Assembly (NCBI GenBank): GCA_945901045.1
Contig: CAMDKK010000034.1
Coordinates: forward strand, 1-41,719
DNA: 41,719 nucleotides
Origin: Limnohabitans sp. Rim8
GTDB taxonomy: Bacteria > Pseudomonadota > Gammaproteobacteria > Burkholderiales > Burkholderiaceae_C
Reading direction: 5' to 3'
Position 1 is the first letter of the stretch. Every line of letters starts with the position of its first letter. The translations under genes were made by a program, and so were the position numbers. Shown one piece after another: positions 1,048 to 17,943 of this stretch. The notes under the pieces were generated by a model. That model did no database searches and was not told the DNA's origin. It was given only the letters and a program-made list of their open reading frames with translations.

Positions 1048-1547
1048 TCGGCATCCTCGTCTTGTGGGCCTGCGGCTTCTCGCGCCACGGTCATAAAGTC
1101 CACCTTGGTGGTCTGGGCACGTTGGTGGCGCTGGGCTTGCATGTGTTGCAGGTGCTGGCGCAAGGGGGCCAGCAAGCTCACCGCCAAGTTATCGCGCTGC
1201 GTGGGGTCTTGCAGCAAAGCATCGGCCACAGCAGCCAATTGGGCTTGACGGTGATTGCGACCCAGGACATAAGCAACCCCCACTGGGGCGTTCAGATGGA
1301 GGGAGTTCAAACGCAAAGCACAACGGGTGACCGTGATCTCACCCAAGTTAAATCGCTCGCCAGTGCCACCCGCTCTGCCCTGCACCATCATCAAGCCGGT
1401 CTCGGGCTGACGCAGCCACTGCGGGGTAGCCTGATGATCAGCCAAGGCCTCGTCCAGCAAGCGCATGGGCGCTCTGGCCAACAAGGCCATCCAAGCCTGT
1501 CTGTCGGCAATCGGCGTTCCCGGATCATGGTCATATGTTTGAAACAT
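1044..1547 (-). CDS. phnG: C-P lyase core subunit PhnG
   Basis: The 167-residue product matches PhnG (about 150 residues in E. coli), a core subunit of the C-P lyase complex. Recognisable parts are RQAWMALLARAP near residues 17-28, the TGLMMVQGRAGGTGERFNLGE block with the GEITVTRC strand, and YVLGRNHRQAQLAAVADALLQD toward the C-terminus. It is first in the leftward phn operon and is transcribed divergently from phnF, so the 86-bp gap between them carries both promoters and the likely PhnF operator. The ribosome site before the ATG is weak, and the exact start is the least certain point. Confidence 0.92.
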   Translation of the reverse strand: MFQTYDHDPGTPIADRQAWMALLARAPMRLLDEALADHQATPQWLRQPETGLMMVQGRAGGTGERFNLGEITVTRCALRLNSLHLNAPVGVAYVLGRNHRQAQLAAVADALLQDPTQRDNLAVSLLAPLRQHLQHMQAQRHQRAQTTKVDFMTVAREAAGPQDEDAE

Positions 1548-1566
1548 CTCTGTGGCAACCTTCTAC

Positions 1567-1578
1567 TTGTCTATACAA
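1567..1578. promoter_or_regulatory. Candidate PhnF operator (TTGTCTATACAA)
   Basis: A 12-bp near-palindrome, TTGTCTATACAA, lies in the phnG-phnF divergent gap. Its half-sites TTGT/ACAA around a TA-rich centre resemble operators of GntR/UTRA regulators such as PhnF, for example the TGGTATAGACCA type. The position, 20 bp upstream of the phnG start and 55 bp upstream of phnF, suits repression of phnG and autoregulation. The assignment rests on position and symmetry only. Confidence 0.45.
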
Positions 1579-1603
1579 CTGTGCAACAGCTTAGGCAAAC
1601 CTT

Positions 1604-1621
1604 GTGTAATTTTCATGACAA
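1604..1621 (-). promoter_or_regulatory. Candidate Pho box upstream of phnG
   Basis: On the minus strand the sequence reads TTGTCAT-GAAA-ATTACAC, which matches the PhoB box (CTGTCAT-N4-CTGTCA[CT]) at 6/7 and 4/7 positions. It lies 57 bp upstream of the phnG start codon. The second half is weak, so this is the least certain of the five candidate Pho boxes in the window. Confidence 0.35.
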
Positions 1622-1633
1622 AGGAGATTTTTT

Positions 1634-2374
1634 TTGAATACCTTGTTGCCCGAATGGATTGAAGGTGGACCCCTGTGGTCGCGTATCGCACAAGAGCTGG
1701 CTGCCGCCATAGGAAAAGGAGAATACGCGCCAGGGGTCCAACTGCCTTCTGAACATCAACTCGCCGCAGATTTCGGCGTCAATCGGCACACCATCCGGCG
1801 TGCCCTGTCTCATTTGTGCCAAAACGGTTTGCTGCGCACCACCCAAGGCAGCGGCACCTTTGTCGAAAATTTGGCGGTCGACCTGGTGCTCGGCAAGCGC
1901 ACACGCCACCGTCACATCTTGGCACAAGCGGGCTTGCGTGGCAACTTGCTGGTCATTCGCAGCCAAGCTGTTTTGGCGAACCCCGAGCAAGCCGAGGCCT
2001 TGCAATGCCCCATTGGCAGTGCCATTTTGCACATGCACATCATGGGCGAAGGTGCGGGACAAGCCTTGCATGTGAGCGAGCGGTATTTCCCATTGCCGCG
2101 ATTCGCGCAGATGGAGAGCATCGTGCAAAGCACAGGCTCGATCACAGAAGGCTTTAAACAACACGGGGTCAACGATTACACGCGACAAGTCAGCCACATC
2201 TCTGCGCGCTTGCCCAGCAAAGCAGTGGCACTTGGGCTGGGGCAATCGGCCACACGGCCTGTTCTGCTCGTCAAAAGCATCAACGTTGACGTGAATCAGT
2301 TGCCCATAGAATTTGCTTGTGCGTGGTTTGCCGGCGACCGCGTCTCCCTCACGGTCCAACACGATGAACACTGA
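1634..2374 (+). CDS. phnF: GntR/UTRA-family transcriptional regulator PhnF
   Basis: This 246-residue regulator has an N-terminal GntR winged helix-turn-helix (roughly residues 12-78, with LPSEHQLAADFGVNRHTIRR and TTQGSGTFV) and a C-terminal UTRA ligand-binding domain (about 95-235, including LHVSERYFPLPRF). It is the usual repressor of the C-P lyase operon and lies divergent to phnG. The start is TTG, chosen because a strong AAAGGAG lies 7 bp upstream and the protein begins right before the conserved domain. The gene ends 11 bp inside the next gene, so it forms an operon with the DUF1045 gene and phnN. Confidence 0.93.
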   Translation: MNTLLPEWIEGGPLWSRIAQELAAAIGKGEYAPGVQLPSEHQLAADFGVNRHTIRRALSHLCQNGLLRTTQGSGTFVENLAVDLVLGKRTRHRHILAQAGLRGNLLVIRSQAVLANPEQAEALQCPIGSAILHMHIMGEGAGQALHVSERYFPLPRFAQMESIVQSTGSITEGFKQHGVNDYTRQVSHISARLPSKAVALGLGQSATRPVLLVKSINVDVNQLPIEFACAWFAGDRVSLTVQHDEH

Positions 2375-3071
2375 AAACGCTTACCGCTACGCCATTTACT
2401 ATGCCCCTGAAGCCAGCAGTGAATGGTGGGCAGCGGGCAGCCATTGGCTGGGGCGGTGTGCCCTCACTGGCCGACAGTTGGCGCAAGCTGTGATCGAGGG
2501 TGTTGCCCCTGAGCGCTTTCACAGGTGCACCCAAGACCCCCGTCGTTATGGATGGCACGCCACGCTCAAGGCGCCTTTTGTGCTGGCTCGCGAAGAGAGC
2601 CTGGCTTCATTGATCGCAGGTTTGCGCCGCATCGCAAATCAACACTCGGCCTTTGCTATGCCTCGCCTGCAGGTCAGCACCGATGGCGGCTTTCTGGCTT
2701 TAAGGCCCACAGTGCGTCACCCGTGCATCCACAGCACAGCAGATGCCTGCGTGACCGGCTTGCAAGCGTTGACGCAAGCCTTGACGGCTGAAGACTTAAC
2801 CCGGCGCAGACAAAAAAGACTGACCGCCCGGCAAGAGCGTTATTTGCAAGCCTGGTCTTACCCATGGGTGTTGGATGAATTTCAGTTTCACATGTCCTTG
2901 ACGGGGCCCTTGCGAAATATTCCAACTGCAGAGCTGACCGCTTTGGTGTCTGCTGCCCAAGAACGGTTTGATGCATTGCCAGCTTGTCGGTTCACGCACT
3001 TGTCGGTCTTTGCTGAGCCTCAAGTGGGCGCCAATTTTGTATGGATTGACAACGTGGCTTTGCGCACATGA
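2364..3071 (+). CDS. DUF1045 (2H phosphoesterase superfamily) phosphonate-metabolism protein
   Basis: This 235-residue protein belongs to DUF1045, a family found almost only in phosphonate operons and related to the 2H (two-histidine) RNA ligase/cyclic phosphodiesterase superfamily. Both signature H-x-[ST] motifs are visible: WHATLK in YGWHATLKAPF (about residue 60) and HMSL in FQFHMSLTG (about residue 175). The ATG at 2364 is preferred over an upstream in-frame start because the conserved YRYAIYYAP segment follows at once. It overlaps phnF by 11 bp and phnN by 4 bp. By family logic it may open a cyclic phosphate intermediate or a nucleotide by-product of C-P lyase, but its reaction is not established from sequence. 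Confidence 0.85.
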   Translation: MNTENAYRYAIYYAPEASSEWWAAGSHWLGRCALTGRQLAQAVIEGVAPERFHRCTQDPRRYGWHATLKAPFVLAREESLASLIAGLRRIANQHSAFAMPRLQVSTDGGFLALRPTVRHPCIHSTADACVTGLQALTQALTAEDLTRRRQKRLTARQERYLQAWSYPWVLDEFQFHMSLTGPLRNIPTAELTALVSAAQERFDALPACRFTHLSVFAEPQVGANFVWIDNVALRT

Positions 3072-3628
3072 ACGCCGCTTTGATTTATGTGGTCGGCCCA
3101 TCGGGTGTGGGTAAAGACAGCTTATTGGCTTGGTTGCGTTGCAACTTGCCTGAGCACCTGCCCGCGCATTGGGCGCAGCGCACGATTGACCGACCCCGAG
3201 TGCCGGATGGCGAGGCCCATGAGAGTATTACGCCAGCAGAGTTCAAGCGCCTGTTGGCTGCACACTCTTTTGCCATGCATTGGCAAGCCAACGGGCATCA
3301 GTACGGGATTCGGCATGCGGAAATAACCTCTTTGGCCCAGCAGCAAGTCTTTGTGAACGGCTCACGCGAACATCTGCCCAATGCGGCTCGGGCTTTTCCG
3401 GGCATGGGTATCTTGCACATCACCGCCAACAAAGAAGTGCTCAGACGTCGCTTGCTGCTCAGAAACCGTGAGTCAATTGCCGAGATTGAACAGCGCTTGA
3501 ACCGGCTGATTGCCATCGAGCCGCCAGCGGGCTGCGCATTCTTTGAAATTCAAAACAACGACAGCCTGGAGGCGTCTGGGCAGCAATTGCTTCAGGCGGT
3601 GATTTCGCTCAAGACAGGCATCAGATAG
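3068..3628 (+). CDS. phnN: Ribose 1,5-bisphosphate phosphokinase PhnN
   Basis: PhnN phosphorylates ribose 1,5-bisphosphate, an end product of C-P lyase, to PRPP, returning the ribose to nucleotide synthesis. The 186-residue protein starts with a P-loop (GPSGVGKDS, residues 10-18) in a guanylate-kinase-like fold and has the usual length. The ATG overlaps the stop of the DUF1045 gene (ATGA). The last 37 bp overlap the 3' end of the convergent phoR gene, so there is no room for a terminator between the two operons. Confidence 0.93.
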   Translation: MNAALIYVVGPSGVGKDSLLAWLRCNLPEHLPAHWAQRTIDRPRVPDGEAHESITPAEFKRLLAAHSFAMHWQANGHQYGIRHAEITSLAQQQVFVNGSREHLPNAARAFPGMGILHITANKEVLRRRLLLRNRESIAEIEQRLNRLIAIEPPAGCAFFEIQNNDSLEASGQQLLQAVISLKTGIR

Positions 3629-4959
3629 GCCTCTTGCGTTTCGAATTTGACCCTGGACGGCGGAAACAACAAGGAAAAGCAAGAGCCCACGCCGACTTCA
3701 CTTTGCACCTGAAAACTGCCGCCGTGACGCAGCACAATGTGTTTGGTGATGGCCAGGCCCAAGCCGGTGCCACCTGATTCACGCGAACGGCTGCGGTCCA
3801 CACGGTAAAAACGTTCTGACAGACGCGGCAAATGTTCTGCGCCAATGCCCATGCCATTGTCAGTGACTGAAAACAAAGCTTGTCCTTCAGGACTGATTTT
3901 CCAAAGCACATCGATCGTGCCGCCCACAGGGGTGTAACGCACGGCATTGTTGACCAAATTGGAAACAGCGCTGTGAATTTCTGCACGCGAGCCACAAATG
4001 AGCAAGGGCTCAGGCCAAGCAAAACTCAAGGCATGCACAGCTTGACCATCACTGCCTTGTAAGGCAGAAAGTGCCATCGCATCTGATTTGACTTGGGACA
4101 TGAGAGCTTTCAGGTCAAACGCCTCGGTCACGGGCGGGGGTGGACTGCCCTCCAATTGAGACAGGGTCAGCAAATCGCTGACCAAGCCTTGCATGCGGGT
4201 GGCTTGAACCGCCATGAGATCCAAATACTTTTCCCTCTCGACCCGTTTCAATGGCAAGGATTGCAAGGTCTCAACAAACCCGGCCAAAACAGTCAATGGG
4301 GTTCTGATTTCGTGTGAAACATTGGCGACAAAATCACGCCGCATTTGATCAGCTTGCGCCCGGGCTGTGACATCGCTCGTCAGCACCAGTTTTTTGTTGT
4401 CGCCATAAGGATGCAGTTGCACCTGCAGCTTGCGAAGTTGCGACAAAGAATTGGATCGCCCCTCCATGAAGACTTCATTTTTAAAATCCCCTTGCGCCAT
4501 GTAACGTGTGAAAACAGGGTCACGCACCAAGTTCACGATATGCTGACCTGCATCTCTTTTGTCATCCAAGCCCAAATGGACAGCCGCTGTTTGGTTGCAC
4601 CATTCAATGCGGCCCTCATCGTCAAGCAAGAGCACCCCATTCGGTGATGCCTGAATGGAAGACATGAACTCTTTCAAACGACTTTGGTGTTGCTCGGCCA
4701 ACAGGGTTCGGCTCTTGAAACCACGTCGAACGCGGTCGACCAACTCCCCCCAAAAACCGCTCAATTCGATCACAGCCAAAGGCTCACCTTTGCGCAGCCA
4801 CACCTCCAATTTGTGGCCCCAAAAGTAATCCCGGACCAACAAAGCCAACAACGCGGTGTTCGTGGCCCATAAGATGCCCGACATGCCAAACAACCAGTAG
4901 CCCCCCGCAGCAGCAACCAACAGGACAAACAGGGCAAAAAATAAGCGCGTCATCATCAC
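3592..4959 (-). CDS. phoR: Phosphate regulon sensor histidine kinase PhoR
   Basis: This 455-residue membrane kinase senses phosphate status through the Pst/PhoU complex and phosphorylates PhoB. It has two hydrophobic helices (about residues 5-42), no large periplasmic domain, a PAS domain (about 95-195, NGVLLLDDEGRIEWCN), a HisKA domain with the phospho-acceptor His at about 216 (VSHEIRTPL), and a HATPase domain with N box (NLVNNAVRYTP), G1 (DNGMGIG) and G2 (GTGLGLAI). It lies 38 bp downstream of phoB and is the last gene of the pst-pho operon. Its final 12 codons overlap phnN on the other strand. Confidence 0.96.
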   Translation of the reverse strand: MMMTRLFFALFVLLVAAAGGYWLFGMSGILWATNTALLALLVRDYFWGHKLEVWLRKGEPLAVIELSGFWGELVDRVRRGFKSRTLLAEQHQSRLKEFMSSIQASPNGVLLLDDEGRIEWCNQTAAVHLGLDDKRDAGQHIVNLVRDPVFTRYMAQGDFKNEVFMEGRSNSLSQLRKLQVQLHPYGDNKKLVLTSDVTARAQADQMRRDFVANVSHEIRTPLTVLAGFVETLQSLPLKRVEREKYLDLMAVQATRMQGLVSDLLTLSQLEGSPPPPVTEAFDLKALMSQVKSDAMALSALQGSDGQAVHALSFAWPEPLLICGSRAEIHSAVSNLVNNAVRYTPVGGTIDVLWKISPEGQALFSVTDNGMGIGAEHLPRLSERFYRVDRSRSRESGGTGLGLAITKHIVLRHGGSFQVQSEVGVGSCFSLLFPPSRVKFETQEAYLMPVLSEITA

Positions 4960-4997
4960 CGAAGACTGTCCGAATTCGAGCTGAAGATGAGATTCAT

Positions 4998-5714
4998 TCA
5001 GGCAGATTTTAATTGAGCAGGCGTCAAGGGCGCGTTGGTCACTCGGTATCCGGCACCACGCACGGTTTCCACCATATTGCTGGCCTCGCCCAATGACTCG
5101 CGCAGGCGCTTGACATGGACATCTACCGTGCGTTCTTCAATGAAGACATGGTCACCCCACACCCGATCGAGCAACTGACCACGGCTGTGGACGCGCTCGG
5201 AATGGCTCATCATGTACTGCAACAATTTAAATTCCGTGGGGCCGATTTTGAGCAACTGATTCTGGTAACTGACGCGGTGTGTGTCCGCGTCCAAGACCAA
5301 ATCCCCCAAGCGCACGGCACCACCGGCTTGCTCAGGCGCGCGGCGGCGCAGCACCGCTCGGATACGGGCCAACAACTCCTTGGTCGAGAACGGTTTGACA
5401 ATGTAATCGTCCGCACCCGCATCCAGACCCGCCACGCGGTCAGGTTCATCGCCTCGCGCCGTGAGCATCAAAATAGGAATGACTTTCAAGCGCGAAGAAG
5501 CTCGCCACTTGCGCGCCAGTGTCAAGCCACTCTCGCCGGGCAACATCCAGTCCAGCAAGATCACATCCGGCATCACATCGTCCAACTCGCGTTGGGCTGT
5601 TTCACCGTCCATGGCCCAGATTGGCTGGAATCCGTTGTGCCGGAGATTGACCGCGATCAGCTCGGCAATCGCCGGTTCATCTTCCACAATCAAAACGCGG
5701 GGCAGTGTTTTCAT
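4998..5714 (-). CDS. phoB: Phosphate regulon response regulator PhoB
   Basis: PhoB is the OmpR-type response regulator that binds Pho boxes under phosphate limitation. The 238-residue protein has a receiver domain with acidic pocket ED at about 11-12, phospho-acceptor Asp55 (ILLDWMLPG), Thr85 and Lys107 (IVKPFS), followed by a winged-helix DNA-binding domain (LGDLVLDADTHRVS ... RTVDVHVKRLRESL ... VRGAGYR). It overlaps phoU by 4 bp. Its likely targets in this window are the candidate Pho boxes described at phnG, pstS, ppk1, the olsB-like gene and ppk2. Confidence 0.97.
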   Translation of the reverse strand: MKTLPRVLIVEDEPAIAELIAVNLRHNGFQPIWAMDGETAQRELDDVMPDVILLDWMLPGESGLTLARKWRASSRLKVIPILMLTARGDEPDRVAGLDAGADDYIVKPFSTKELLARIRAVLRRRAPEQAGGAVRLGDLVLDADTHRVSYQNQLLKIGPTEFKLLQYMMSHSERVHSRGQLLDRVWGDHVFIEERTVDVHVKRLRESLGEASNMVETVRGAGYRVTNAPLTPAQLKSA

Positions 5715-6409
5715 TTGACGACAGACTCGATTTCAGACAAAGAGGTGTGGCGAACGTCAGCCCCTTTGACCACGTAAATGATGAACTCGGCAATGTTTTT
5801 GGAGTGGTCACCAATGCGCTCAATGGCTTTGGCAATGAACAGCAAATCCAAACTGGCCGAAATAGTCCGGGGGTCTTCCATCATGTACGTCACCAGCTTG
5901 CGCACAAAGCCATCAAACTCGGCATCAATCAGATCGTCTTCTTTCAAGATGCTGATGGCCGCTTTGACGTCCAACCTTGCAAATGCGTCCAGCGCTTTGC
6001 GCAAAAGTCCAGAGGCCAAATCTGCGGCCACCCGCAACTCGGAGGCGGGCACAGAGCGGGCTGCACCACTGGCCACAATCGCTTTGACCATGCGGGCGAT
6101 CTTTTCTGACTCGTCACCCGCGCGCTCGAGATTGGCCGTTGTTTTGGAGATGGCAATCAACAAGCGCAGGTCAATCGCGGTGGGCTGGCGCCTGGCAATA
6201 ATGGAGGACAAATCGCGGTCGATTTCCACTTCCATGGCATTGACTTGGGCTTCTGTGGCAATGACTTGCTCGGCCACTTCCAAACTGAATTGAGACAAAG
6301 CATAGACAGCATTGCGGATTTGCGATTCAACCAAACCGCCAAGCTCCAATACCCGGCTGGAGACACTGGTCAACTCCACGTCAAACTGGCTAGAAATGTG
6401 TTTATCCAT
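5711..6409 (-). CDS. phoU: Phosphate signalling protein PhoU
   Basis: PhoU is a cytoplasmic two-repeat helical bundle that couples the PstSCAB transporter to PhoR and keeps the Pho regulon off when phosphate is plentiful. The 232-residue protein begins MDKHISSQFDVEL and carries the two PhoU repeats with the metal-cluster-type E/D-rich motifs (e.g. EVEIDRDLSSIIARRQP, NLERAGDESEKIAR and, in repeat 2, ERIGDHSKNIAEFIIY). It is 14 bp downstream of pstB and overlaps phoB by 4 bp, in the standard operon position. Confidence 0.97.
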   Translation of the reverse strand: MDKHISSQFDVELTSVSSRVLELGGLVESQIRNAVYALSQFSLEVAEQVIATEAQVNAMEVEIDRDLSSIIARRQPTAIDLRLLIAISKTTANLERAGDESEKIARMVKAIVASGAARSVPASELRVAADLASGLLRKALDAFARLDVKAAISILKEDDLIDAEFDGFVRKLVTYMMEDPRTISASLDLLFIAKAIERIGDHSKNIAEFIIYVVKGADVRHTSLSEIESVVK

Positions 6410-6423
6410 AGGGCTCTTTCTGT

Positions 6424-7206
6424 TCAGCCGAAGCGGCCGGTGATGTAGTCTTCAGTTTCTTGGCGGGTGGGCTTCATGAAGATCGCTTCCGTCTGGCCGT
6501 ATTCGATCAATTCACCTAAATACATGTACGCGGTAAAGTCGGATACACGGGCAGCTTGCTGCATGTTGTGCGTCACAATCACCACCGTGTACTCGCTTTT
6601 GAGCGTGTGCACCAACTCTTCTACTTTGCCGGTAGAAATCGGGTCCAGCGCAGAGGTAGGTTCATCCAGCAACAACACCGAAGGCTTGACCGCAATGCCA
6701 CGGGCAATGCACAAGCGCTGCTGCTGGCCGCCGGACAAAGACAAGCCGCTTTGATTCAGCTTGGACTTGACTTCATTCCAGATGGCGGCTTTTTGCAAGG
6801 CCCACTCGACGCGGTCATCCATGTCACTGCTGGAGAGGTTTTCATACAAGCGCACACCAAAGGCGATGTTGTCATAAATCGACATCGGGAAGGGCGTGGG
6901 CTTTTGAAACACCATGCCAATGCGCGAGCGCAGCAGGTTCAAATCTTGCTTAGGGTTGAGGATGTTCTCGCCGTTGAAATTGATCTCACCTTCGGCACGC
7001 TGACCCGGGTACAGGTCGTACATGCGGTTCAGGGTGCGCAGCAAGGTGGATTTGCCGCACCCGGAGGGGCCAATGAAGGCGGTCACGGTGTTGGCTTTGA
7101 TGTCTAAATTGACATTTTTCAAACCCTGAAAGGCACCGTAGTAGAAATTCAGATTGCGAATTTCCAAAACGGTTTTGGCTTCAGCCAAGGGGGGTATGGT
7201 TTTCAT
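6424..7206 (-). CDS. pstB: Phosphate ABC transporter ATP-binding protein PstB
   Basis: PstB is the ATPase of the high-affinity phosphate importer. With the ATG at 7206 the protein has 260 residues, the normal family length. Seen are Walker [10 protein letters not shown] (about 46-54), the phosphate-family [13 protein letters not shown] segment (101-113), the ABC signature LSGGQQQRL (157-165), Walker B VLLLDEP (177-183) and the H-loop [10 protein letters not shown]. An open frame continues upstream to 7518 but lies inside pstA and has no family similarity, so it was excluded. The gap to pstA is 2 bp. Confidence 0.97.
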
Positions 7207-7208
7207 GT

Positions 7209-8075
7209 TCAGACTGCAACTTTCTCTTTGAAGACGACGCGTGCCAAAATGTTCAGGCCCAGCACAGTCAAGGTAATCAGAAGGGCGCCGCCCCAGGCCA
7301 GATTGACCCAGTTCTCGTAAGGGCTCATGGCAAATTGGTAAATCACCACCGGCAAATTGGCCATAGGTGCATTCATATTGGTCGAGTAGAACTGGTTGTT
7401 CAAGGCGGTGAACAGCAAGGGTGCGGTTTCGCCGCTCACGCGTGCCAATGACAAAAGCAAACCGGTCATCACGCCGCTTTTGGCTGCTTTGAGGACGACA
7501 GTTGTAGAGACTTTCCATTTCGGCGCACCCAAAGCAAAGGCGGCTTCACGCAAAGTCACAGGGACGAGTTTGAGCATGTTCTCTGTGTTGCGCACAACCA
7601 CAGGAATCGCAATCAAAGCCAAGGCCAAGGTACCGGCCCAGCCCGAGAAATGCTTGGCATTGACGACCACAATGGCATAGATGAACAGCCCCACCACAAT
7701 GGACGGCGCTGACAACATGATGTCGTTGATGAAACGGGTCACAGCTGCAATTTTGCTGCGGTCGCCATACTCCGACAAATAAATGGCCGCCATCACACCC
7801 ACCGGGGTGCTGATCAAAGTGCAACTGCCCACAATCATCAAACTGCCCACAATGGCGTTCAGCAATCCGCCACCTTCAGAACCTGGCGCAGGTGTACTTT
7901 GAGTGAACATGGCCAGATTCAAAGCCGAGAATCCTTTGAACATCAGTATGCTCAAAATCCACAACAAGAAAGCAAGCCCGATGGCCATGGCCAACATGGA
8001 CAGAAAAATACCTATATTGCTTTTGATTTTGCGACTGCGGTAAATACTCACATCAGAATGTGTTGGCGTACTCAT
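7209..8075 (-). CDS. pstA: Phosphate ABC transporter permease PstA
   Basis: PstA is one of the two inner-membrane channel subunits of the Pst phosphate importer. The 288-residue protein (start [16 protein letters not shown]) has about six membrane segments and the binding-protein-dependent permease EAA region near [23 protein letters not shown]. The ATG at 8075 is chosen because it overlaps the pstC stop in an ATGA arrangement; a longer frame to 8117 starts inside pstC. The neighbours on both sides are pst genes with near-zero spacing. Confidence 0.96.
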
Positions 8076-9058
8076 GATTTCATCCCCTTCTTGGCTTCCG
8101 CACGCAGCAACATCCACTTGGCCAGAGACAAAACAATCAAGGTGATGAGGAACAAGGCCAGACCCAATGCAAACAAAGAGGAGTAGTGCAAACCAGGCTC
8201 CGCTTCACCAAATTCGTTGGCCAAGGTCGATGCAATCGAGTTGCCAGGCGAAAACAAGGAGGGCGACAATTTATGAGCGTTGCCAATGACAAAAGTCACC
8301 GCCATGGTCTCGCCCAAGGCACGGCCCAAGCCCAGCATCACGCCGCCGACCACGCCGGTTTTGGTGTAGGGCAGCACAATGTTGGTCACCACCTCCCACG
8401 TGGTGCATCCCAAGGCATAAGCTGACTCTTTGAGAATAGGCGGCACAATTTCAAACACATCGCGCATAACCGAGGCAATGAAAGGCAAAATCATCATGGC
8501 CAAAATCAAACCGGCAGCCAAAATGCCGATGCCATTGAATGCGCCTGTGAACAAAAACCCCAAGCCTGGAATTTGACCTACACTGCCCGCAATCGCAGGC
8601 TGAACATAGTCCGCAAACAAGGGGGCAAATACAAACAAACCGAACATGCCATAAATAATGGAGGGCACAGCGGCCAGCAATTCAATGGCCGTGCCCAAGG
8701 GTCGGCGCAAAGGCATCGGGCAAGTTTCGGTTAAAAAGACGGCAATGCCAAAGCTCAAAGGCAAGGCAATCACGATCGCAATCGTGGCGGTCACCACCGT
8801 ACCGAATATGGCAATCAAGCCGCCAAACTTGGAGTTGATGATGTCCCACTCGATGGTGTAGAAAAATGGCAAACCAAATTCAGCCAACGCAGGCCAAGCA
8901 CTGATGACCAAGGAGCCAATGATCCCCAGCAACACCACCAAGGTGGTCATTGCAAAGGTCATGGATGTTTTTTCGAAAACAAAGTCTTGAATACGCTGAA
9001 TGCGTATCACCTTTTGGCGGTGTGATGCCAGTGCATCGGTCTGATCAAACGTAGCCAT
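8072..9058 (-). CDS. pstC: Phosphate ABC transporter permease PstC
   Basis: PstC is the partner permease of PstA in the inner membrane. The 328-residue protein has a cytoplasmic N-terminus followed by about six membrane helices and the permease motif around [26 protein letters not shown]. Family blocks such as [13 protein letters not shown] and [19 protein letters not shown] are clear. It follows pstS after 61 bp that form a strong hairpin, which may set PstS expression above that of the membrane subunits. Confidence 0.96.
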
Positions 9059-9074
9059 GTTTATCCTGATTTTT

Positions 9075-9108
9075 CAAGCCCTTCAGACCGGCGGGTCTGA
9101 GGGGCTTG
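9075..9108 (-). promoter_or_regulatory. Intercistronic hairpin between pstS and pstC
   Basis: A 15-bp stem (CAAGCCC..TCAGACC pairing with GGTCTGA..GGGCTTG, one weak pair) with a 4-base loop fills most of the 61-bp pstS-pstC gap. In the direction of the operon it is followed by GAAAAATC, not a T tract, so it is not a standard terminator. It more likely protects the upstream pstS message or attenuates read-through into pstCAB, as expected where a binding protein is needed in excess. Confidence 0.7.
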
Positions 9109-9119
9109 GGTGTCAACAA

Positions 9120-10142
9120 TTATTTGACGTTGACTTTATTCCACACGCTCTTGCGGATGAAATCGGTTGTGGCATCAGGCATTGGAACGTATTCCAAATC
9201 AAGTGCCATTTTTTTGCCTTCTTTGAAAGCAAAATCAAAGAACTTCATCACTTCTGCTGCGTTGGCTTTGTTGGTAGGGTCTTTGTAGACCACAATGAAA
9301 GAAGCCGCTGAAATAGGCCATGATTTGGCACCAGCTGCATTGGTCAAAAAGGTGCCCATGCCAGGGATTTTTGACCAATCTGTGCCTGCCGAAGCGGCCG
9401 CAAAGGTTTCGTCATCGGGCTGAACGTACTGACCTGCCGCATTGCGCAAGCTGATGTGGGTCATGTTGTTTTTCTTGGCGTAAGCGTATTCCACGTAACC
9501 AATCGAGTTTTTAACGCGAGACACGTTGGCCGAAACGCCTTCATTGCCCTTGCCGCCCACAGATGAAGGAGCAGGCCACTTTACGGCAGCACCCGCACCC
9601 ACGGTTTGCTTCCAGTTGGCATTGACTTTGGCCAAGTAGTCGGTGAAGACAGCGGTAGTACCAGAACCATCAGCGCGGTGCACCACAGTGATAGCCGCAT
9701 CGGGCATTTTGACGCCAGGATTCAGATCGGCAATGCGCTTGTCATTCCAATTGGCAATGCCGCCAGAGAACAACTCGGCCAACAGCTCACCTGTCATTTT
9801 CAACTGACCGGGCTTGACACCGTCCACGTTGATGACAGCCACAACACCACCAATGATGGCGGGGAACTGAACCATGCCGTCTTTTTCAAGATCTTCAAAG
9901 CTCACGGGGTTGTCGGTTGCACCGAAATCAACTGTTTTGGCTTTGATTTGCTTGATGCCACCCGAAGAACCAATGGACTGGTAGTTCATGCTCACACCCG
10001 ACTTGGCTTTGTAGGCTTCTGCCCACTTGGCGTAAATCGGATAAGGAAAGGTCGCGCCGGCGCCGGTGATTTCAGAGGCAAAGCTGCTGGCAGCCAAGAC
10101 TGACAATCCCAAAGCCGCTACCCAGGATTTGATCTTCAACAT
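9120..10142 (-). CDS. pstS: Periplasmic phosphate-binding protein PstS
   Basis: PstS binds phosphate in the periplasm and delivers it to PstCAB. The 340-residue protein starts with a signal peptide (MLKIKSWVAALGLSVLAASSFA, predicted cleavage before SEITG) followed by the phosphate-binding GAGATFPYPIYAKW and, later, the YQSIGSSGGIKQI and VHRADGSGTTAVFTDYL loops. ATG 10142 is chosen because AAGGA lies upstream and it begins the signal peptide; the frame extends further upstream without family similarity. It is the first gene of the operon and has a candidate Pho box 75 bp upstream. Confidence 0.97.
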   Translation of the reverse strand: MLKIKSWVAALGLSVLAASSFASEITGAGATFPYPIYAKWAEAYKAKSGVSMNYQSIGSSGGIKQIKAKTVDFGATDNPVSFEDLEKDGMVQFPAIIGGVVAVINVDGVKPGQLKMTGELLAELFSGGIANWNDKRIADLNPGVKMPDAAITVVHRADGSGTTAVFTDYLAKVNANWKQTVGAGAAVKWPAPSSVGGKGNEGVSANVSRVKNSIGYVEYAYAKKNNMTHISLRNAAGQYVQPDDETFAAASAGTDWSKIPGMGTFLTNAAGAKSWPISAASFIVVYKDPTNKANAAEVMKFFDFAFKEGKKMALDLEYVPMPDATTDFIRKSVWNKVNVK

Positions 10143-10216
10143 AGAGAGTCCTTGATGAGGTTGGTAAAAAATGTTCAAACTATTTTCGAACATGTGAACC
10201 ACTTTACCCGCCAATT

Positions 10217-11956: not shown

Positions 11957-12382
11957 ATGCCCACCACCGTCACCCCCCAATCCACCGCTAAAACAACCCG
12001 CACAGTGGCCAAGGCGGCAGCGCCTTTGACCTCCACTGCGCGCAAAATGCCAGCCCAAAAAGCCGCAGCAAAAAAAGCACCCGCTGCAAAAAAACCGGCC
12101 ATGAAACCAGCCGTCACCAAAGCCGCCAAAGCTGCAGCGCCTGAAAAAATAAAAACCACCAAGAAACCCAAACTGGTGCGCGACAGTTTCACCATGCCCA
12201 AAGACGAGTACCAGGCCATTGAAACCCTGAAACAACGTGCCACCGGACTTCAGCGGATCGCGAAAAAAAGTGAGTTGTTGCGCGCTGGCATCATGGCTTT
12301 AAGCGCCATGGACGATAAAGACTTGTTGGCTATCCTGGCCAAGGTCCCGGCCTTGAAAACCGGACGTCCCATGAAAGCCTGA
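11957..12382 (+). CDS. Small histone-H1-tailed protein with ribbon-helix-helix-like C-terminus
   Basis: The 141-residue, strongly basic protein has a disordered Lys/Ala/Pro/Thr-rich N-terminus (about residues 1-72, with repeated AAKKAPAAKKPA-like units) and a compact C-terminal part. The latter looks like a strand (VRDSFTM, about 74-80) followed by two helices (YQAIETLKQRA and KSELLRAGIMAL), the order of a ribbon-helix-helix DNA-binding fold. GGAG lies 8 bp upstream of the ATG. It sits between ppx and the convergent sixA-ppk1 genes. Lys-rich H1-like proteins bind DNA and in some bacteria (AlgP-type) associate with polyphosphate; a nucleoid or polyphosphate-granule role is inference from composition and place. 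I do not recognise a named family. Confidence 0.85.
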   Translation: MPTTVTPQSTAKTTRTVAKAAAPLTSTARKMPAQKAAAKKAPAAKKPAMKPAVTKAAKAAAPEKIKTTKKPKLVRDSFTMPKDEYQAIETLKQRATGLQRIAKKSELLRAGIMALSAMDDKDLLAILAKVPALKTGRPMKA

Positions 12383-12874: not shown

Positions 12875-14980
12875 CTACTTTTTATTTTTTACCGATGCTG
12901 AATAACGCTGCATCAGAATGGCTTGGGCACTGCGAATATGGCGCCCTTTCTTTTCAATTTTCTCGTAATGGCCCTCAGGTGCTAAGCGCCACGCATTGCG
13001 CCCGTCCTGCATATAAACACTGAGGCATTCATCGATGACCCGTTGACGCAAAACGGGATCGTCCACTGGCCAAGCCAATTCGATGCGGCGCAGCATGTTG
13101 CGGTTCATCCAGTCTGCACTCGACAAATACAAGCTTTCTTTCTCTCCGCTTAAAAAATAGAAGACCCGGGTGTGCTCCAAAAATCGGCCCACCACCGAAC
13201 GAACCCGTATGTTGTCGGTGAAATTTTCGACTTCTGCAGGCAGCATGCACGCGCCGCGAATGATCAAGTCAATTTGAGCGCCTGATTGCCCCGCGCGGAT
13301 GAGCGCATCAATCAGATCCAAGTCGGTCAAAGCATTCATTTTGACCATGATTTTTGCAGCCTGACCCTTTAATGCAGCGGCGCCAACAGCCTCAATTTGG
13401 GCAATGATTTTGCGATGCAAATAAAACGGCGCCACCCACAGTTTGTTCATGCGGCTTAATCGGCTTTGGCTGGCCAAATGCATGAAAACATGGTCCATAT
13501 CCGCCGTCAACTGAGGGTCACAAGTCAGATAACTGATGTCGGTGTAAAGGCGTGCTGTTCGGGGGTTGTAATTGCCTGTAGAAAGATGACCATATTTTTT
13601 GAGAGATTTGCCTTCACGGCGCGTGACCAGTAACATTTTGGCGTGGGTTTTCAAGCCCACAACGCCATAGACCACTTGGGCACCCACAGACTCCAATTGC
13701 TCGGCCACGTTGATGTTGGCTTCTTCATCAAAACGTGCTTTGAGTTCAACCACCGCCGTGACTTCTTTGCCGCGCCTGACGGCCTCGCGCAACAAATCCA
13801 ACATCACGGTGTCGTTGCCAATGCGGTAAATCGTTTGCTTGATTGCCAGAACCTGCGGGTCGTAAACCGCCTCGCGCAGAAAGTCCAATACGCCTTCAAA
13901 ACTCTCATATGGCTGGTGAATCAGTACATCCCCCTTTTGTATGCGCGCAAAAACAGAAGCACCACGTTCCAATTGTTTGGGATAGCTCGCTTGGTAGCCA
14001 GGAAAAAGCAACTCCGGCTCATTGACCAGATCGATCAGTTGGCTCAAGCGCACCAAATTCACAGGCCCTGCCACGCGAAACAAGGCAGGCTTTGGAAGCT
14101 TGAACTGCTTGAGCAAAAAATCGCTCAAATGCTCGGAACAACTGTCAGAAACTTCCAGTCGAACGGCTTGCCCATATTGGCGGTGTTGAAGTCCCTGCCT
14201 GAGTGCGGTTCTTAAATTTTCAACATCATCTTCGTCCACCGACAGCTCTGAATTCCTTGTCACGCGAAACTGCGAGAACTGCCCCACCTCACGCCCCACA
14301 AACAAATCGGCCAAGTGCGCTCGTATCACACTTGAGAGCAACACAAAGCAGCTGCCTCGGCCGGCAACTTTGTCAGGCAAACGAATCAGGCGCGGCAAAA
14401 TGCGCGGCACCTTGACAATGGCAATGTCGTTTTGTCGCCCGTAAACGTCTTTTCCACTCAATTGGACAATGAAATTAAGCGACTTGTTGGCGACTTGGGG
14501 AAAGGGGTGCGCAGGATCCAAGCCCACGGGTACCAACAAGGGCTTGACTTCCCTTACAAAATAGTCGTGAACCCACTTCTTCTGAACGGGGTTGCGAACA
14601 CCATGCGTCAAAATATGAATGGACTCCTTCTCCAGTGCTGGCAGCAAGGTCTCGTTGTAAAGGCTGTATTGCTCCTCCACCAATTGCGCGGCTTTCTTGT
14701 AATTGGATTTGAAGGACTCACTGGTGTAAGCACCGCTTTTGTCTTTTTGCGTATGAGCGGTCAGATGCAGCATGGCCCTGACTTCAAAAAACTCATCCAA
14801 ATTGGAGGAAACAATACACAGGTACCTCAAACGCTCCAGCAATGGCACTTCAGTGCGTTTGGCCCAATCCAAGACGCGAGAGTTGAAGTCCAAGATGCTG
14901 GCATCACGGTCCAAAAGAGAGCCCTCCGAAGCGACTCGGACAGGGTCTGCGGACAGGTTGGAAGTTGGCGAAGATGTCAT
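12875..14980 (-). CDS. ppk1: Polyphosphate kinase 1
   Basis: PPK1 reversibly transfers the gamma phosphate of ATP to a growing polyphosphate chain. With the ATG at 14980 it has 701 residues, close to the usual 690. It has the N and head domains (LLDRDASILDFNSRVL; LRYLCIVSSNLDEFFEVR) and two phospholipase-D-like C domains with KTHAKMLLV, the autophosphorylated-His region YGHLSTGNYNPRTARLYTD and the acidic VELKARFDEEANI. An in-frame TTG at 15019 has a GGAG 8 bp upstream, but the candidate Pho box plus extended -10 (TGTGACAAT, 15027-15019) would put transcription start downstream of it, so ATG 14980 is preferred. The start remains uncertain. Confidence 0.95.
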   Translation of the reverse strand: MTSSPTSNLSADPVRVASEGSLLDRDASILDFNSRVLDWAKRTEVPLLERLRYLCIVSSNLDEFFEVRAMLHLTAHTQKDKSGAYTSESFKSNYKKAAQLVEEQYSLYNETLLPALEKESIHILTHGVRNPVQKKWVHDYFVREVKPLLVPVGLDPAHPFPQVANKSLNFIVQLSGKDVYGRQNDIAIVKVPRILPRLIRLPDKVAGRGSCFVLLSSVIRAHLADLFVGREVGQFSQFRVTRNSELSVDEDDVENLRTALRQGLQHRQYGQAVRLEVSDSCSEHLSDFLLKQFKLPKPALFRVAGPVNLVRLSQLIDLVNEPELLFPGYQASYPKQLERGASVFARIQKGDVLIHQPYESFEGVLDFLREAVYDPQVLAIKQTIYRIGNDTVMLDLLREAVRRGKEVTAVVELKARFDEEANINVAEQLESVGAQVVYGVVGLKTHAKMLLVTRREGKSLKKYGHLSTGNYNPRTARLYTDISYLTCDPQLTADMDHVFMHLASQSRLSRMNKLWVAPFYLHRKIIAQIEAVGAAALKGQAAKIMVKMNALTDLDLIDALIRAGQSGAQIDLIIRGACMLPAEVENFTDNIRVRSVVGRFLEHTRVFYFLSGEKESLYLSSADWMNRNMLRRIELAWPVDDPVLRQRVIDECLSVYMQDGRNAWRLAPEGHYEKIEKKGRHIRSAQAILMQRYSASVKNKK

Positions 14981-15037
14981 CGGCGTTTCGTGTTTGAAGT
15001 TCAATTGCTGAACGGGCAATTGTCACACTCCAATTTA

Positions 15038-15055
15038 ATGACATTAATATGACAA
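15038..15055 (-). promoter_or_regulatory. Candidate Pho box of ppk1
   Basis: The minus strand reads TTGTCAT-ATTA-ATGTCAT, two direct repeats with the correct 4-bp AT-rich spacer, matching the Pho box at 6/7 and 6/7. Thirteen bases downstream is GACAAT preceded by TG (extended -10). This is one of the clearest PhoB sites in the window. Confidence 0.72.
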
Positions 15056-15089: not shown

Positions 15090-15989
15090 TCAAGCAAGCA
15101 CTGTTTCGGCTTTATGGGTACTCAGTCGTATTTGATTCACCTCGTCAAAGCTCAGAATTTCCATTCGGCCGTCAGGGTGCTCGACCAAGGTCGTCAGACT
15201 TTCGACCCAATCGCCATCGTTGCAGTACAAAATGCCGTTGATATCGCGAATTTCGGCGTGGTGAATATGTCCGCACACCACGCCATTGAATCCGTGTTTG
15301 GCCGCTTGCGTGGCCACGGCCACTTCAAAGTCATTGATGAAACTGACGGCCTTTTTGACTTTGAGCTTGAGGTAGGCCGACAAAGACCAATAGGGCAAAC
15401 CAAATTTGGCACGTAAATGGTTGAGGTAACGGTTGAGTTTGAGCGTCAATTCATACAGGTTGTCACCCAAATAGGCCAACCATTTGGCCAACTGAATGAT
15501 GCCGTCAAAATAATCCCCGTGGATGACCCACAGTTTTTTCCCTGTGGCCGTGGTGTGCACCGCTTCTTTCAACACTTGAATGCCGCCAAAAGAATGGCCA
15601 ATGAAAGCACGCGCAAATTCGTCGTGGTTGCCCGGTATAAACACCACCTTGCAACCCTTGCGCGCGCGGCGCAGTAGTTTCTGCACCACATCGTTGTGCG
15701 CTTGCGGCCAATACCAACGCCGGCGCAGTTGCCACCCATCGATGATGTCCCCGACCAGGTACAGGGTGTCGCAGGTGTGGGTTCTTAAAAATTCAAGCAG
15801 AGCCTCAGCCTGACAACCTGGCGTGCCCAGATGCAGGTCAGAAATAAAAATGGCCCGGAAATGCCGGGCACCTTCTTCATCGTGCTGCTCATCCTTAGGC
15901 TCATGCGATGCATGTTGTAAAACTTGGGCATAAGTGCCTGCAACCGAGGGCTTGTCTTGATTGCCGTCTGCATAAAAACTACTGCGCAT
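15090..15989 (-). CDS. PlcP/LpxH-like calcineurin-type metallophosphoesterase
   Basis: The 299-residue enzyme has the full dinuclear metallophosphoesterase signature: SDLHLG (50-55), GDIIDGW (80-86), GNHDE (120-124), a HGDYFD block, and GHIHHAEI near the C-terminus. Such proteins are often annotated UDP-2,3-diacylglucosamine hydrolase, but the same subfamily includes PlcP, the PhoB-controlled phospholipase C that strips head groups from membrane phospholipids under phosphate starvation. GGAG lies 7 bp before ATG 15989, which decides this start over an overlapping GTG at 15995. It is 2 bp downstream of the OlsB-like gene and shares its Pho box, which favours a PlcP-like role. Substrate is inferred, not shown. 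Confidence 0.85.
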   Translation of the reverse strand: MRSSFYADGNQDKPSVAGTYAQVLQHASHEPKDEQHDEEGARHFRAIFISDLHLGTPGCQAEALLEFLRTHTCDTLYLVGDIIDGWQLRRRWYWPQAHNDVVQKLLRRARKGCKVVFIPGNHDEFARAFIGHSFGGIQVLKEAVHTTATGKKLWVIHGDYFDGIIQLAKWLAYLGDNLYELTLKLNRYLNHLRAKFGLPYWSLSAYLKLKVKKAVSFINDFEVAVATQAAKHGFNGVVCGHIHHAEIRDINGILYCNDGDWVESLTTLVEHPDGRMEILSFDEVNQIRLSTHKAETVLA

Positions 15990-15991
15990 GT

Positions 15992-16831
15992 TCACACTCC
16001 GTTGAAGTGTTTGCGATAACGCGCGGGCATGTCAGCGACACGCATCATCATGGGCAAATCGGCCGAGTTGAAATCAGGGTCCCACGCCGGGGCGCCCAGT
16101 ACTTTGGCGCCCAATCGCAGGTAGCCTTTGATCAGTGCAGGGGGCTCCACGGGCAAGTTGCTGTCCAGCTGATCGACAGGCAAGGGCAATCTGGGCTTGA
16201 CGTGGTAGGCGACCGATGCCATGTGTGAACGACTGACTTGCGACCAAATACTGGCCGCTACATCACCTGAAACAATGCCGTTGTGCTGCATCGGAATGCT
16301 GGCACAACCGATCATGGTGTCCAGTTGGTTCCGCGTCATGAACTCAAATAAAGCCCCCCACAAGGCCAAAACCACGCCGCCATGGCGATGATCGGGATGC
16401 ACGCAACTGCGCCCCAACTCCACCATCCGTGAACGAATTTCCCGCAGCCGCGTGAGATCGAATTCTGTATCACTGTAGGTGCCTCCGGCGCGTTGGGCTT
16501 GGGCGGGTGTGAGCACACGGTAGGTGCCGATGACCTGCTGGGTCAGTTCATCGCGCACCAACAAATGTTCGCAATAGTCATCGAATAAGTCCATGTCATG
16601 ACCGGGCAATGGGGCAGAGAGGTGTGCGCCCATTTCTCCAGCAAAGACATTGAACCTCAGCTTTTGAGCTTCCCGAACTTCATCTTGATGTTGCGCCCAT
16701 GAAACCCTGATACCACCCCTTACATTTTTTGAAGCCTGAGGAGAAACTGTTGCCAGGCCGTCTGTGAGCAACGCGCTCCCAGGCAGCATGGCAGGCGATA
16801 TCAATGGGGTGTGTGTCGCAAGTTCTTTCAT
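15992..16831 (-). CDS. OlsB-like GNAT acyltransferase (ornithine-lipid synthesis type)
   Basis: The 279-residue protein matches the acyltransferase family (PF13444) typified by OlsB, which moves a 3-hydroxyacyl group from acyl-carrier protein to the alpha-amino group of ornithine, the first step to ornithine lipid. Typical segments are EAQKLRFNVFAGEMGAH, DLFDDYCEHLLV, GTYRVLTPAQA and VELGRSCVHPDHRHGGVV. AAGGAG lies 6 bp before ATG 16831 (a second ATG at 16834 has only 3 bp). No OlsA-like second acyltransferase is in this window. It is first in a two-gene operon with the PlcP-like enzyme, downstream of a good Pho box. Confidence 0.84.
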   Translation of the reverse strand: MKELATHTPLISPAMLPGSALLTDGLATVSPQASKNVRGGIRVSWAQHQDEVREAQKLRFNVFAGEMGAHLSAPLPGHDMDLFDDYCEHLLVRDELTQQVIGTYRVLTPAQAQRAGGTYSDTEFDLTRLREIRSRMVELGRSCVHPDHRHGGVVLALWGALFEFMTRNQLDTMIGCASIPMQHNGIVSGDVAASIWSQVSRSHMASVAYHVKPRLPLPVDQLDSNLPVEPPALIKGYLRLGAKVLGAPAWDPDFNSADLPMMMRVADMPARYRKHFNGV

Positions 16832-16928
16832 CATGTGCTCCTTCAGTTTTCGATGGATTAATGGTTTGAAACTTTGTGTGAATGAGTTCAATGATGTCGA
16901 TTGACCGTGACGCCATCGCGGCATATTG

Positions 16929-16946
16929 ATGACAGTAAAGTGAAAT
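16929..16946 (-). promoter_or_regulatory. Candidate Pho box of the olsB-like/plcP-like operon
   Basis: The minus strand reads ATTTCAC-TTTA-CTGTCAT, matching the Pho box at 5/7 and a perfect 7/7 with correct spacing. It lies 98 bp upstream of the olsB-like start, in the divergent gap shared with ppk2. Confidence 0.62.
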
Positions 16947-17025: not shown

Positions 17026-17943
17026 ATGACTGACTTGAACAAACAAAACTTGGATGAAGACCAAATTCGCCGACTGCGAGAAGACTTGCTCGACACGTTG
17101 GATGAAGAGTTTGAGATGGAAATTGACGACCGGCTGTCCGATGTCGGGGCGGAATTCAAAAGTTCCAATGCGGCAGCGCGTGCGCATTACTTTCGCGAAT
17201 TGCTGCGCCTGCAGGGCGAACTGGTCAAGTTGCAAGACTGGGTGGTGGCCACCAAGCAGCGGGTGGTTATTTTGTTTGAAGGCCGTGATGCCGCCGGCAA
17301 AGGCGGCGTGATCAAACGCATCACGCAACGCCTCAACCCCCGCGTATGCCGTGTCGCCGCACTGCCCGCGCCGAACGACCGTGAGCGTACGCAGTGGTAT
17401 TTTCAACGCTACATTGCGCACCTGCCAGCCGCTGGCGAGATCGTCTTGTTTGACCGCAGTTGGTACAACCGCGCTGGCGTCGAACGCGTCATGGGCTTTT
17501 GCAATGACGAGGAGTACGAAGAGTTCTTCCGCTCGGTACCTGAGTTTGAAAAGATGCTGGTCCGCAGTGGACTGACCTTGATCAAGTACTGGTTCTCGAT
17601 CACCGATGACGAGCAGCACGCGCGCTTTTTAGGCCGCATTCACGACCCCTTGAAGCAGTGGAAACTCAGCCCCATGGATCTGGAAAGTCGACGCCGCTGG
17701 GAAGACTACACCCGTGCCAAAGAGACCATGATCGAGAGAACGCATATCCCCGAAGCACCTTGGTGGGTGGTGCAGGCGGTTGACAAAAAAATTGCCCGAC
17801 TCAATTGCATCGACCATCTACTGCAACACTTTGACTACCACGAGATCACGCATGAAGGCGTTCAATTGCCTGCCCGTGTGCGCAATCCAGACTACATTCG
17901 CAATCCAGTCCCTGACAGCATGGTGGTGCCCGAAAAATATTGA
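17026..17943 (+). CDS. ppk2: Polyphosphate kinase 2 (class I PPK2)
   Basis: PPK2 enzymes transfer phosphate between polyphosphate and nucleoside di/monophosphates. The 305-residue single-domain protein has Walker A EGRDAAGKGG (85-94), lid residues after NDRERTQWYFQRYI, and Walker B FDRSWYNRAGVERVMGFC (142-159), typical of the GDP/ADP-phosphorylating class I group. GGAGA upstream fixes the ATG at 17026; an ATG 5 bp earlier is out of frame and an in-frame TTG at 16984 lies inside the Pho box. Together with ppk1 and ppx it gives the cell both synthesis and use of polyphosphate. Confidence 0.95.
   Translation: MTDLNKQNLDEDQIRRLREDLLDTLDEEFEMEIDDRLSDVGAEFKSSNAAARAHYFRELLRLQGELVKLQDWVVATKQRVVILFEGRDAAGKGGVIKRITQRLNPRVCRVAALPAPNDRERTQWYFQRYIAHLPAAGEIVLFDRSWYNRAGVERVMGFCNDEEYEEFFRSVPEFEKMLVRSGLTLIKYWFSITDDEQHARFLGRIHDPLKQWKLSPMDLESRRRWEDYTRAKETMIERTHIPEAPWWVVQAVDKKIARLNCIDHLLQHFDYHEITHEGVQLPARVRNPDYIRNPVPDSMVVPEKY

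Follow-up and report, generated by a model that had tools for sequence, protein, structure and literature searches.

Can a bacterium that carries an acyltransferase gene and a phosphoesterase gene side by side, between the two polyphosphate kinase genes ppk1 and ppk2, use the pair to replace membrane phospholipids when phosphate runs short? This question is raised by Limnohabitans sp. Rim8, in which an olsB-like N-acyltransferase gene is followed by a plcP-type metallophosphoesterase gene (hereafter olsB-plcP) on contig CAMDKK010000034.1 of assembly GCA_945901045.1. The 41,719 nucleotides of this contig constitute what we call the window (contig C34 of a 4.01 Mb genome of 126 contigs, 94% complete). 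The original prediction, made from the sequence of the window, read the pair as a PhoB-controlled lipid remodelling operon. Our results support this interpretation: olsB-plcP quite probably serves a PhoB-type remodelling of lipids upon phosphate starvation, carried out by PlcP and the OlsB-like enzyme. The enzymes are of known kinds, and PlcP-based remodelling has been characterised in rhizobia, marine alphaproteobacteria, pseudomonads and methanotrophs, according to the portions of the literature covered here, a scope that applies to every paper cited below by its PMC accession.

In Pfam, the phosphoesterase matches calcineurin-like Metallophos domains only. The NCBIfam models for LpxH are its best matches in that database, yet it fails both, with 48.7 bits (cut-off 134) and 44.7 bits (cut-off 190.35). 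A separate LpxH, which reaches 218.6 bits for the 134-bit cut-off, is encoded on contig C41 next to two genes reading like peptidyl-prolyl isomerases; the gene of the window is, thus, not the sole LpxH-like gene of the genome. A single branch of a 75-row maximum-likelihood tree splits 47 PlcP-type rows from 28 LpxH rows (support 100/100; present in 100% of 200 bootstrap trees), with the window protein on the PlcP side. For this tree, 47 PlcP and 30 LpxH loci were offered and 46 and 27 used, the others being excluded for lack of a match, an internal stop or an LpxH match of at most 150 residues; the window's PlcP and the genome's own LpxH were added, and enzymes neighbouring LpxI were left out. 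Residue 124 follows the same division, being histidine (GNHD) in 47/47 PlcP rows, the window protein among them, and arginine (GNRD) in 28/28 LpxH rows. The D-x-H, GD, GN-D, HGD and GHxH motifs, whose residues we take to be metal ligands, are kept on both sides, and the window protein retains D53, H55, D83, N123, H124, H159, H243 and H245. Its likeness to LpxH lies in the calcineurin-like superfamily and these common motifs, and its difference in the failed cut-offs, the placement in the tree and GNHD instead of GNRD. The protein is 51-52% identical to homologs that have the glycosyltransferase Agt as a neighbour (loci L057 and L058), and homologs of PlcP were found at E 1e-15 in 102 of 299 genomes drawn from the phylum. 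Models, tree and residue 124 all bear out the proposal that the enzyme is PlcP-like rather than LpxH, as well as the warning that the label UDP-2,3-diacylglucosamine hydrolase would mislead.

The product of the olsB-like gene, ACYLTRANSFERASE, is the sole match to Pfam Acetyltransf_5 (PF13444) found in the genome (121 bits, cut-off 22.4). Its two best NCBIfam models are OlsB equivalogs, matched over nearly the full length of the protein; the bifunctional ornithine lipid synthase OlsF scores 43 bits and the glycine enzyme GlsB 16 bits. The OlsB likeness stated in the original prediction, thus, holds at family level, and we call the protein OlsB-like and not OlsB because it misses both NCBIfam cut-offs. 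The amino acid that it would acylate is most likely ornithine, which we say with less confidence than we place in the remodelling itself.

Ornithine lipid synthesis by OlsB also calls for an O-acyltransferase, OlsA, whose gene is usually adjacent to olsB (PMC11631085). The original prediction saw no OlsA in the window and supposed either that it lies elsewhere or that a different N-acyl lipid is made; a candidate does exist elsewhere, albeit one that stays below the OlsA cut-off and belongs to a sister subfamily. The genome encodes three PlsC-type proteins, on contigs C11, C27 and C57. That of C11, which adjoins a gene reading like pyrC, has the best OlsA score of the three and groups weakly, in a 25-row tree, with OlsA-like proteins found near OlsB, apart from the other two; a query from its subfamily matches 188 of 200 genomes of the family, more than OlsB does. 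The C27 protein was rejected as an OlsA, being best described as a 1-acylglycerol-3-phosphate acyltransferase (95 bits, versus 40 for OlsA), and so was the C57 protein, which is without an OlsA match at E 0.01. We regard the C11 protein as an OlsA candidate and not as a finding. The likeness to the OlsB/OlsA systems consists of the OlsB-like protein, the candidate OlsA in the genome and the OlsA-like genes beside olsB in some relatives; here, however, olsB is coupled to plcP rather than to olsA, and the cut-offs of the OlsB models are missed.

The coupling of the two genes extends well beyond the window. Among 200 genomes screened from the family, OlsB was found in 163 and PlcP in 147 (locus rows used: OlsB for 148 of the 163 positive genomes, PlcP for 147/147); 137 genomes have both, 26 OlsB only, 10 PlcP only and 27 neither (Fisher test, 3e-11), these and the other genome counts below being uncorrected for shared ancestry. 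The two genes are neighbours in the order olsB-plcP in 58 of the 128 genomes with both among the matches listed. We also read 80 named loci, nearly all from Burkholderiales and many from Comamonadaceae. OlsB lies directly 5' of PlcP in 63 of them and Agt directly 3' of PlcP in 52; the order olsB-plcP-agt occurs in 46, followed by ppk1 in 36 (our count of rows), and olsB-plcP-ppk1 without agt in nine. The closest relative (L138, 82% identical) has the gene order of the window and is one of these nine. An OlsA-like gene stands beside olsB in six of the 80. Where PlcP is absent (L016, L019, L020, L022, L026, L027, L035 and L036), olsB directly precedes ppk1, so that plcP-agt looks like a cassette between olsB and ppk1.

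Outside the family, we read 40 PlcP neighbourhoods from 38 genomes. An Agt-type GT4 glycosyltransferase lies near PlcP in 18 of them, OlsB in three and OlsF in five; PlcP and aminolipid synthesis are, thus, paired repeatedly but not universally (8/40 loci). In L061, olsB-plcP-agt have overlapping ends. Two order-level relatives gather more of the pathway within about 5 kb: ppk2, OlsA, PlcP, Agt and OlsB in L062, and PlcP, GT4-B (a glycosyltransferase class described below), OlsB and OlsA in L125. The five loci with OlsF are gammaproteobacterial (L059, L064, L122, L135 and L136), and OlsF is over its cut-off in both of those scored (L059 and L064). The window protein differs from OlsF in being of the single-domain OlsB type; the parallel is the pairing with PlcP. 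In L122, an Agt-type glycosyltransferase is also present, on the side of PlcP opposite to OlsF.

Regulation by PhoB is suggested by Pho boxes, which we scored against a consensus that we take to be CTGTCAT-N4-CTGTCAT. According to the original prediction, olsB and plcP share a 12/14 box. A conserved box does lie upstream of olsB, scoring 11/14; the sole strict 12/14 site of the window belongs to ppk1, and that of olsB reaches 12/14 only if the first unit is allowed to end in C. Taken alone, an 11/14 site is weak, as first-order Markov sequences of the window's length contain on average 3.2 sites of 11 and 0.15 of 12, and the window itself four and one. The olsB box is more than chance because it is conserved in relatives: the best score upstream of OlsB is at least 10 in 27 of 38 regions, window included (26 of 37 distinct ones, since L034 and L080 are the same site), versus 68 of 760 shuffles and 59 of 760 random segments. 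The closest relative carries TTGTCATTTGACTGCCAC upstream of OlsB, and in at least eight of the 38 loci no PlcP adjoins OlsB. Dependence on PhoBR is reported for PlcP, OlsA and OlsB alike in Pseudomonas putida BIRD-1 (PMC5082522). As a separate observation, a site of at least 10/14 occurs upstream of ppk1 in 11 of 15 loci hand-chosen from the 80 named ones (L138 and 14 between L142 and L209; no control was run for this count), whether or not agt precedes ppk1.

The fate of the diacylglycerol that PlcP would release is less simple, as the window has no agt between plcP and ppk1; the 70 bp that separate plcP from the first possible ppk1 start hold the Pho box of ppk1. The closest relative likewise lacks agt at the locus, and its genome, like that of the window, retains elsewhere a lipid-type glycosyltransferase, GT4-B (see below). 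Within the window's genus, agt lies between plcP and ppk1 in one genome (G087) and directly after plcP in another (G189). Nor was a true Agt found in the rest of the genome, the best match being a longer GT4 glycosyltransferase on contig C49 (38% over 246 residues); since the genome is 94% complete, a copy in an assembly gap is possible. The C49 protein was rejected as a true Agt: it is 31-38% identical to Agt, versus 45-54% among the Agt-type neighbours of PlcP outside the family, and its class, made up of longer proteins, occurs alongside Agt in some genomes. A betaine lipid was also rejected as the fate of the diacylglycerol, as no match to BtaA (PF11899) was found in the genome.

We call this longer class GT4-B. 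Agt was delimited by E below 1e-60 and GT4-B by weaker matches down to 1e-20, a class set by score against Agt among the matches listed, its four PlcP-negative members by score alone. Agt occurs in 72 of the 200 family genomes, all 72 with PlcP. Among the 128 agt-less genomes, a GT4-B-class match is present in 53 of 75 with PlcP versus 4 of 53 without (Fisher test, 2e-13). In 17/17 genomes whose locus was fetched, chosen because GT4-B is close to PlcP or agt is missing, the GT4-B-class proteins are 50-59% identical to that of C49. At most 12 kb separate GT4-B from PlcP in 28 of the 63 genomes with both among the matches listed, and the two are near each other in 10 of the 80 named loci. Its best NCBIfam models are lipid glycosyltransferases, at 136.6 and 107 bits (below their cut-offs of 480 and 400). 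Among 26 of the 80 named loci, GT4-B is found in seven of nine agt-less genomes versus five of 17 agt-bearing ones (p 0.04), the nine being all those of the agt-less arrangement and the 17 hand-chosen from 46. The GT4-B gene belongs to a cluster, listed in Table 1 and recurrent in relatives, which adjoins or contains PlcP in 15 loci picked for closeness, and whose 202-aa protein has no Pfam or NCBIfam match. As GT4-B-class matches track PlcP among agt-less genomes, we infer that GT4-B is able to replace Agt, a proposal that we put forward tentatively. With the same reserve, one can picture a modular Pho regulon in which OlsB and PlcP would form a paired core, supplying aminolipid and diacylglycerol, next to an interchangeable glycosyltransferase slot; Agt would have been lost in several lineages of these Burkholderiales and GT4-B would fill the slot as a diacylglycerol glycosyltransferase. 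The product of the GT4-B cluster may be a lipid yet undescribed, for example an amino-sugar or glucuronosyl lipid.

The scheme that we propose builds on family-level gene identities, synteny, the absence of agt at the locus, Pho-box conservation and co-occurrence; from these we infer all the enzyme activities, the amino acid, the binding of PhoB and the role of GT4-B. At low phosphate, PhoB would bind the box upstream of olsB and transcribe olsB-plcP. PlcP would then take the phosphorus-containing head group off membrane phospholipids, leaving diacylglycerol, while the OlsB-like enzyme would acylate an amino acid, most likely ornithine, with a 3-hydroxy fatty acid; the phosphorus-free aminolipid would be finished by an O-acyltransferase whose gene lies elsewhere (the candidate of C11). 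The operon of most relatives examined includes agt, whose product would glycosylate the diacylglycerol; in this lineage, with agt gone from the operon, GT4-B from C49 could do so. The same Pho response would drive ppk1 through its own box.

A number of observations weigh against this scheme. The PlcP label is a putative one, drawn from tree, residues and neighbours among genomic homologs, and the OlsB-like protein scores 151.9 bits (cut-off 350) and 147.5 bits (cut-off 320) with its two best models. The 26 family genomes with OlsB and no PlcP, and the 10 with the reverse, show that the association is not strict; the two genes lie more than 20 kb apart or on different contigs in 66 of the 128 genomes with both among the matches listed, and in 17 of the 80 named loci the gene directly upstream of PlcP is not OlsB. 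The C11 candidate reaches 140 bits with the OlsA model NF052553, whose cut-off is 300, and its subfamily branches as the sister of the OlsB-adjacent group rather than within it, at a weak fork with long branches (83/73); as 29 of 37 OlsB-negative genomes also carry a C11-type protein, it may serve another purpose. The olsB box reaches just 11/14 in the window, and 11 of the 38 upstream regions score below 10, six of which (L008, L012, L014, L018, L025 and L030) share a similar far-upstream stretch that may be coding. No GT4-B-class match was found in 22 of the 75 agt-less PlcP genomes, and GT4-B is missing from two of the nine agt-less named ones. Lastly, the link between ornithine lipid and phosphate is described as not a tight one in Burkholderia (PMC11631085), and Burkholderia sensu stricto makes this lipid constitutively (PMC7814305).

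How do other explanations fare with the same data? One reading, to be expected from automatic annotation, makes the phosphoesterase a paralog of LpxH in lipid A synthesis, and draws on LpxH being the enzyme's only match among solved structures at E 0.001 and the source of its best NCBIfam models; we reject this identity, whose probability is next to nil, on the grounds of models, tree and residues, with a true LpxH on C41, and 17 genomes of other classes likewise show only sub-cut-off matches to the LpxH model, several of them at the position of the PlcP homolog. The enzyme might instead cleave a soluble phosphodiester, its position between the ppk genes reflecting polyphosphate or nucleotide metabolism and not lipids. 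Metallophosphoesterases have broad substrates, as is known of the family, and ppk1, ppk2 and ppx adjoin, but ppk genes stand beside PlcP in just one of the 40 loci read outside the family, and the recurrent neighbours there are agt, olsB, olsA and olsF, which makes a soluble substrate highly improbable.

The remaining alternatives leave part of the remodelling in place. In one, OlsB acylates glutamine, lysine or a non-standard amino acid, or the product stays a lyso-lipid, in keeping with the missed ornithine-specific cut-offs, the lack of an adjacent OlsA in the window, a C11 candidate that is not of the OlsB-adjacent type, and the fact that a review counts GluB among the OlsB-type acyltransferases (PMC11631085); we consider it unlikely, as the two best models are ornithine-specific and far above OlsF and GlsB, and the gammaproteobacterial PlcP neighbourhoods hold OlsF. 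In the other, the loss of agt leaves the cell with no glycolipid: a kinase recycles the diacylglycerol, the aminolipid alone replaces the phospholipid, and GT4-B is unrelated, acting for example on a cell-surface sugar. Agt is indeed absent at the locus and poorly matched elsewhere in the genome, the UDP-glucose dehydrogenase, phosphatidylserine decarboxylase and aminotransferase around GT4-B could form another pathway, GT4-B also occurs in agt-bearing named genomes, and the 22 agt-less PlcP genomes mentioned above have neither glycosyltransferase. This explanation nonetheless seems doubtful to us in view of the tracking of PlcP by GT4-B-class matches over the 128 agt-less genomes, the proximity of the two genes in both sets of loci, and the lipid glycosyltransferases that head the list of models for GT4-B.

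Remodelling by PlcP and the OlsB-like enzyme can now be set beside the systems already described. By tree and neighbours, the phosphoesterase is of the same kind as PlcP of Sinorhizobium meliloti and of the PlcP-Agt systems of Phaeobacter, SAR11, Pseudomonas aeruginosa and Methylosinus, with which the locus has in common an upstream Pho box and, in the window's relatives, the plcP-agt order; it differs in having olsB first in the operon and agt missing. The arrangement of plcP beside agt is common (PMC4796936, PMC8528852, PMC9239053), and PlcP-Agt makes glycolipids in P. aeruginosa (PMC8528852). The portion of PMC4796936 covered names btaBA, agt and other glycosyltransferases as partners of plcP, but not olsB. 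P. aeruginosa has two diacylglycerol glycosyltransferases, Agt1 and Agt2, for one PlcP, one of them encoded apart (PMC8528852), a situation that Agt and GT4-B may parallel, the likeness being one of description and not of Agt2 sequence; the GT4-B cluster, with its decarboxylase, aminotransferase, LplT and Ugd, is not described in the text of that paper examined. In the literature examined, whose coverage leaves out most subscription journals, we found no description of the olsB-plcP(-agt)-ppk1 operon, of the loss of agt or of the GT4-B cluster.

Beyond correcting an annotation that would make the phosphoesterase a lipid A gene, and bringing forward GT4-B as a candidate lipid glycosyltransferase, these results bear on freshwater bacteria. 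Among the window's relatives are Limnohabitans, Rhodoferax, Curvibacter and Polaromonas, all common lake bacteria, and growth in lakes is often phosphorus-limited. A recent Baltic study states that remodelling appears less pronounced in freshwater than elsewhere (PMC13086504); a widespread olsB-plcP-agt operon would call for a fresh look at freshwater remodelling. The operon offers a gene marker for this, and cultured strains are at hand (Curvibacter delicatus NBRC 14919, which has olsB-plcP-agt, Acidovorax radicis N35 and Limnohabitans strains, among them the agt-less Limnohabitans sp. 15K, L166).

Table 1. Coordinates of the genes and Pho-box sites discussed (window positions unless a locus is given)
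Feature	Position	Strand	Remarks
olsB-like N-acyltransferase	15992-16834	-	280 aa from first ATG (279 aa from 16831), PF13444
plcP-type metallophosphoesterase	15090-15989	-	299 aa from ATG; 301 aa from GTG at 15995
ppk1, polyphosphate kinase 1	12875-15019	-	four PP_kinase domains (Pfam); next gene 3' of plcP
ppk2	17026-17943	+	Pfam PPK2 365.7 bits; divergent from olsB
Response regulator in phoB position	4998-5714	-	Response_reg and Trans_reg_C; adjoins PhoR-domain kinase
phoR sensor kinase	3592-4959	-	PF11808 PhoR 37.2 bits, HisKA, HATPase_c
Pho box upstream of ppk1	15038-15055	-	12/14; downstream of plcP, at the position of agt in many relatives
Pho-box-like site upstream of olsB	16929-16946	-	ATTTCACTTTACTGTCAT, 11/14, on olsB strand
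Second, overlapping Pho-box-like repeat upstream of olsB	16918-16935	-	10/14
GT4-B cluster	L066:1538-8870 (contig C49)		phosphatidylserine decarboxylase, class III aminotransferase (561 aa), 202-aa protein, GT4-B, LplT, UDP-glucose dehydrogenase

The layout of the locus given in Table 1 agrees in plain observation with that of the original prediction. The two genes are 2 bp apart when plcP starts at its ATG; the alternative GTG at 15995 would instead create a 4-bp overlap. The pair lies between ppk1 and ppk2, both confirmed by Pfam. For olsB, adjacent ATGs occur at 16834 and 16831, preceded by AAGGAG at distances of three and six bases, respectively, a spacing that makes the 16831 start, the one originally chosen, at least as good as the other.

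The left part of the window is occupied by ppx, pst, pho and phn-like genes. The genes phoR, phoB, phoU, pstB, pstA, pstC and pstS lie at 3592-10214; the PhoR-domain kinase, the response regulator and the PstS-type binding protein are confirmed by Pfam, and the other pho and pst names come from translations only. Between a ppx-like gene and a histidine phosphatase gene, positions 11957-12382 (+) encode a 141-aa protein without a Pfam match at 1e-8, whose long N-terminal half, rich in Lys, Ala and Pro, has a histone H1-like look. At the left edge (439-3628), the translations have the look of phnH, phnG, a GntR-type phnF and phnN, of the C-P lyase pathway for phosphonate.

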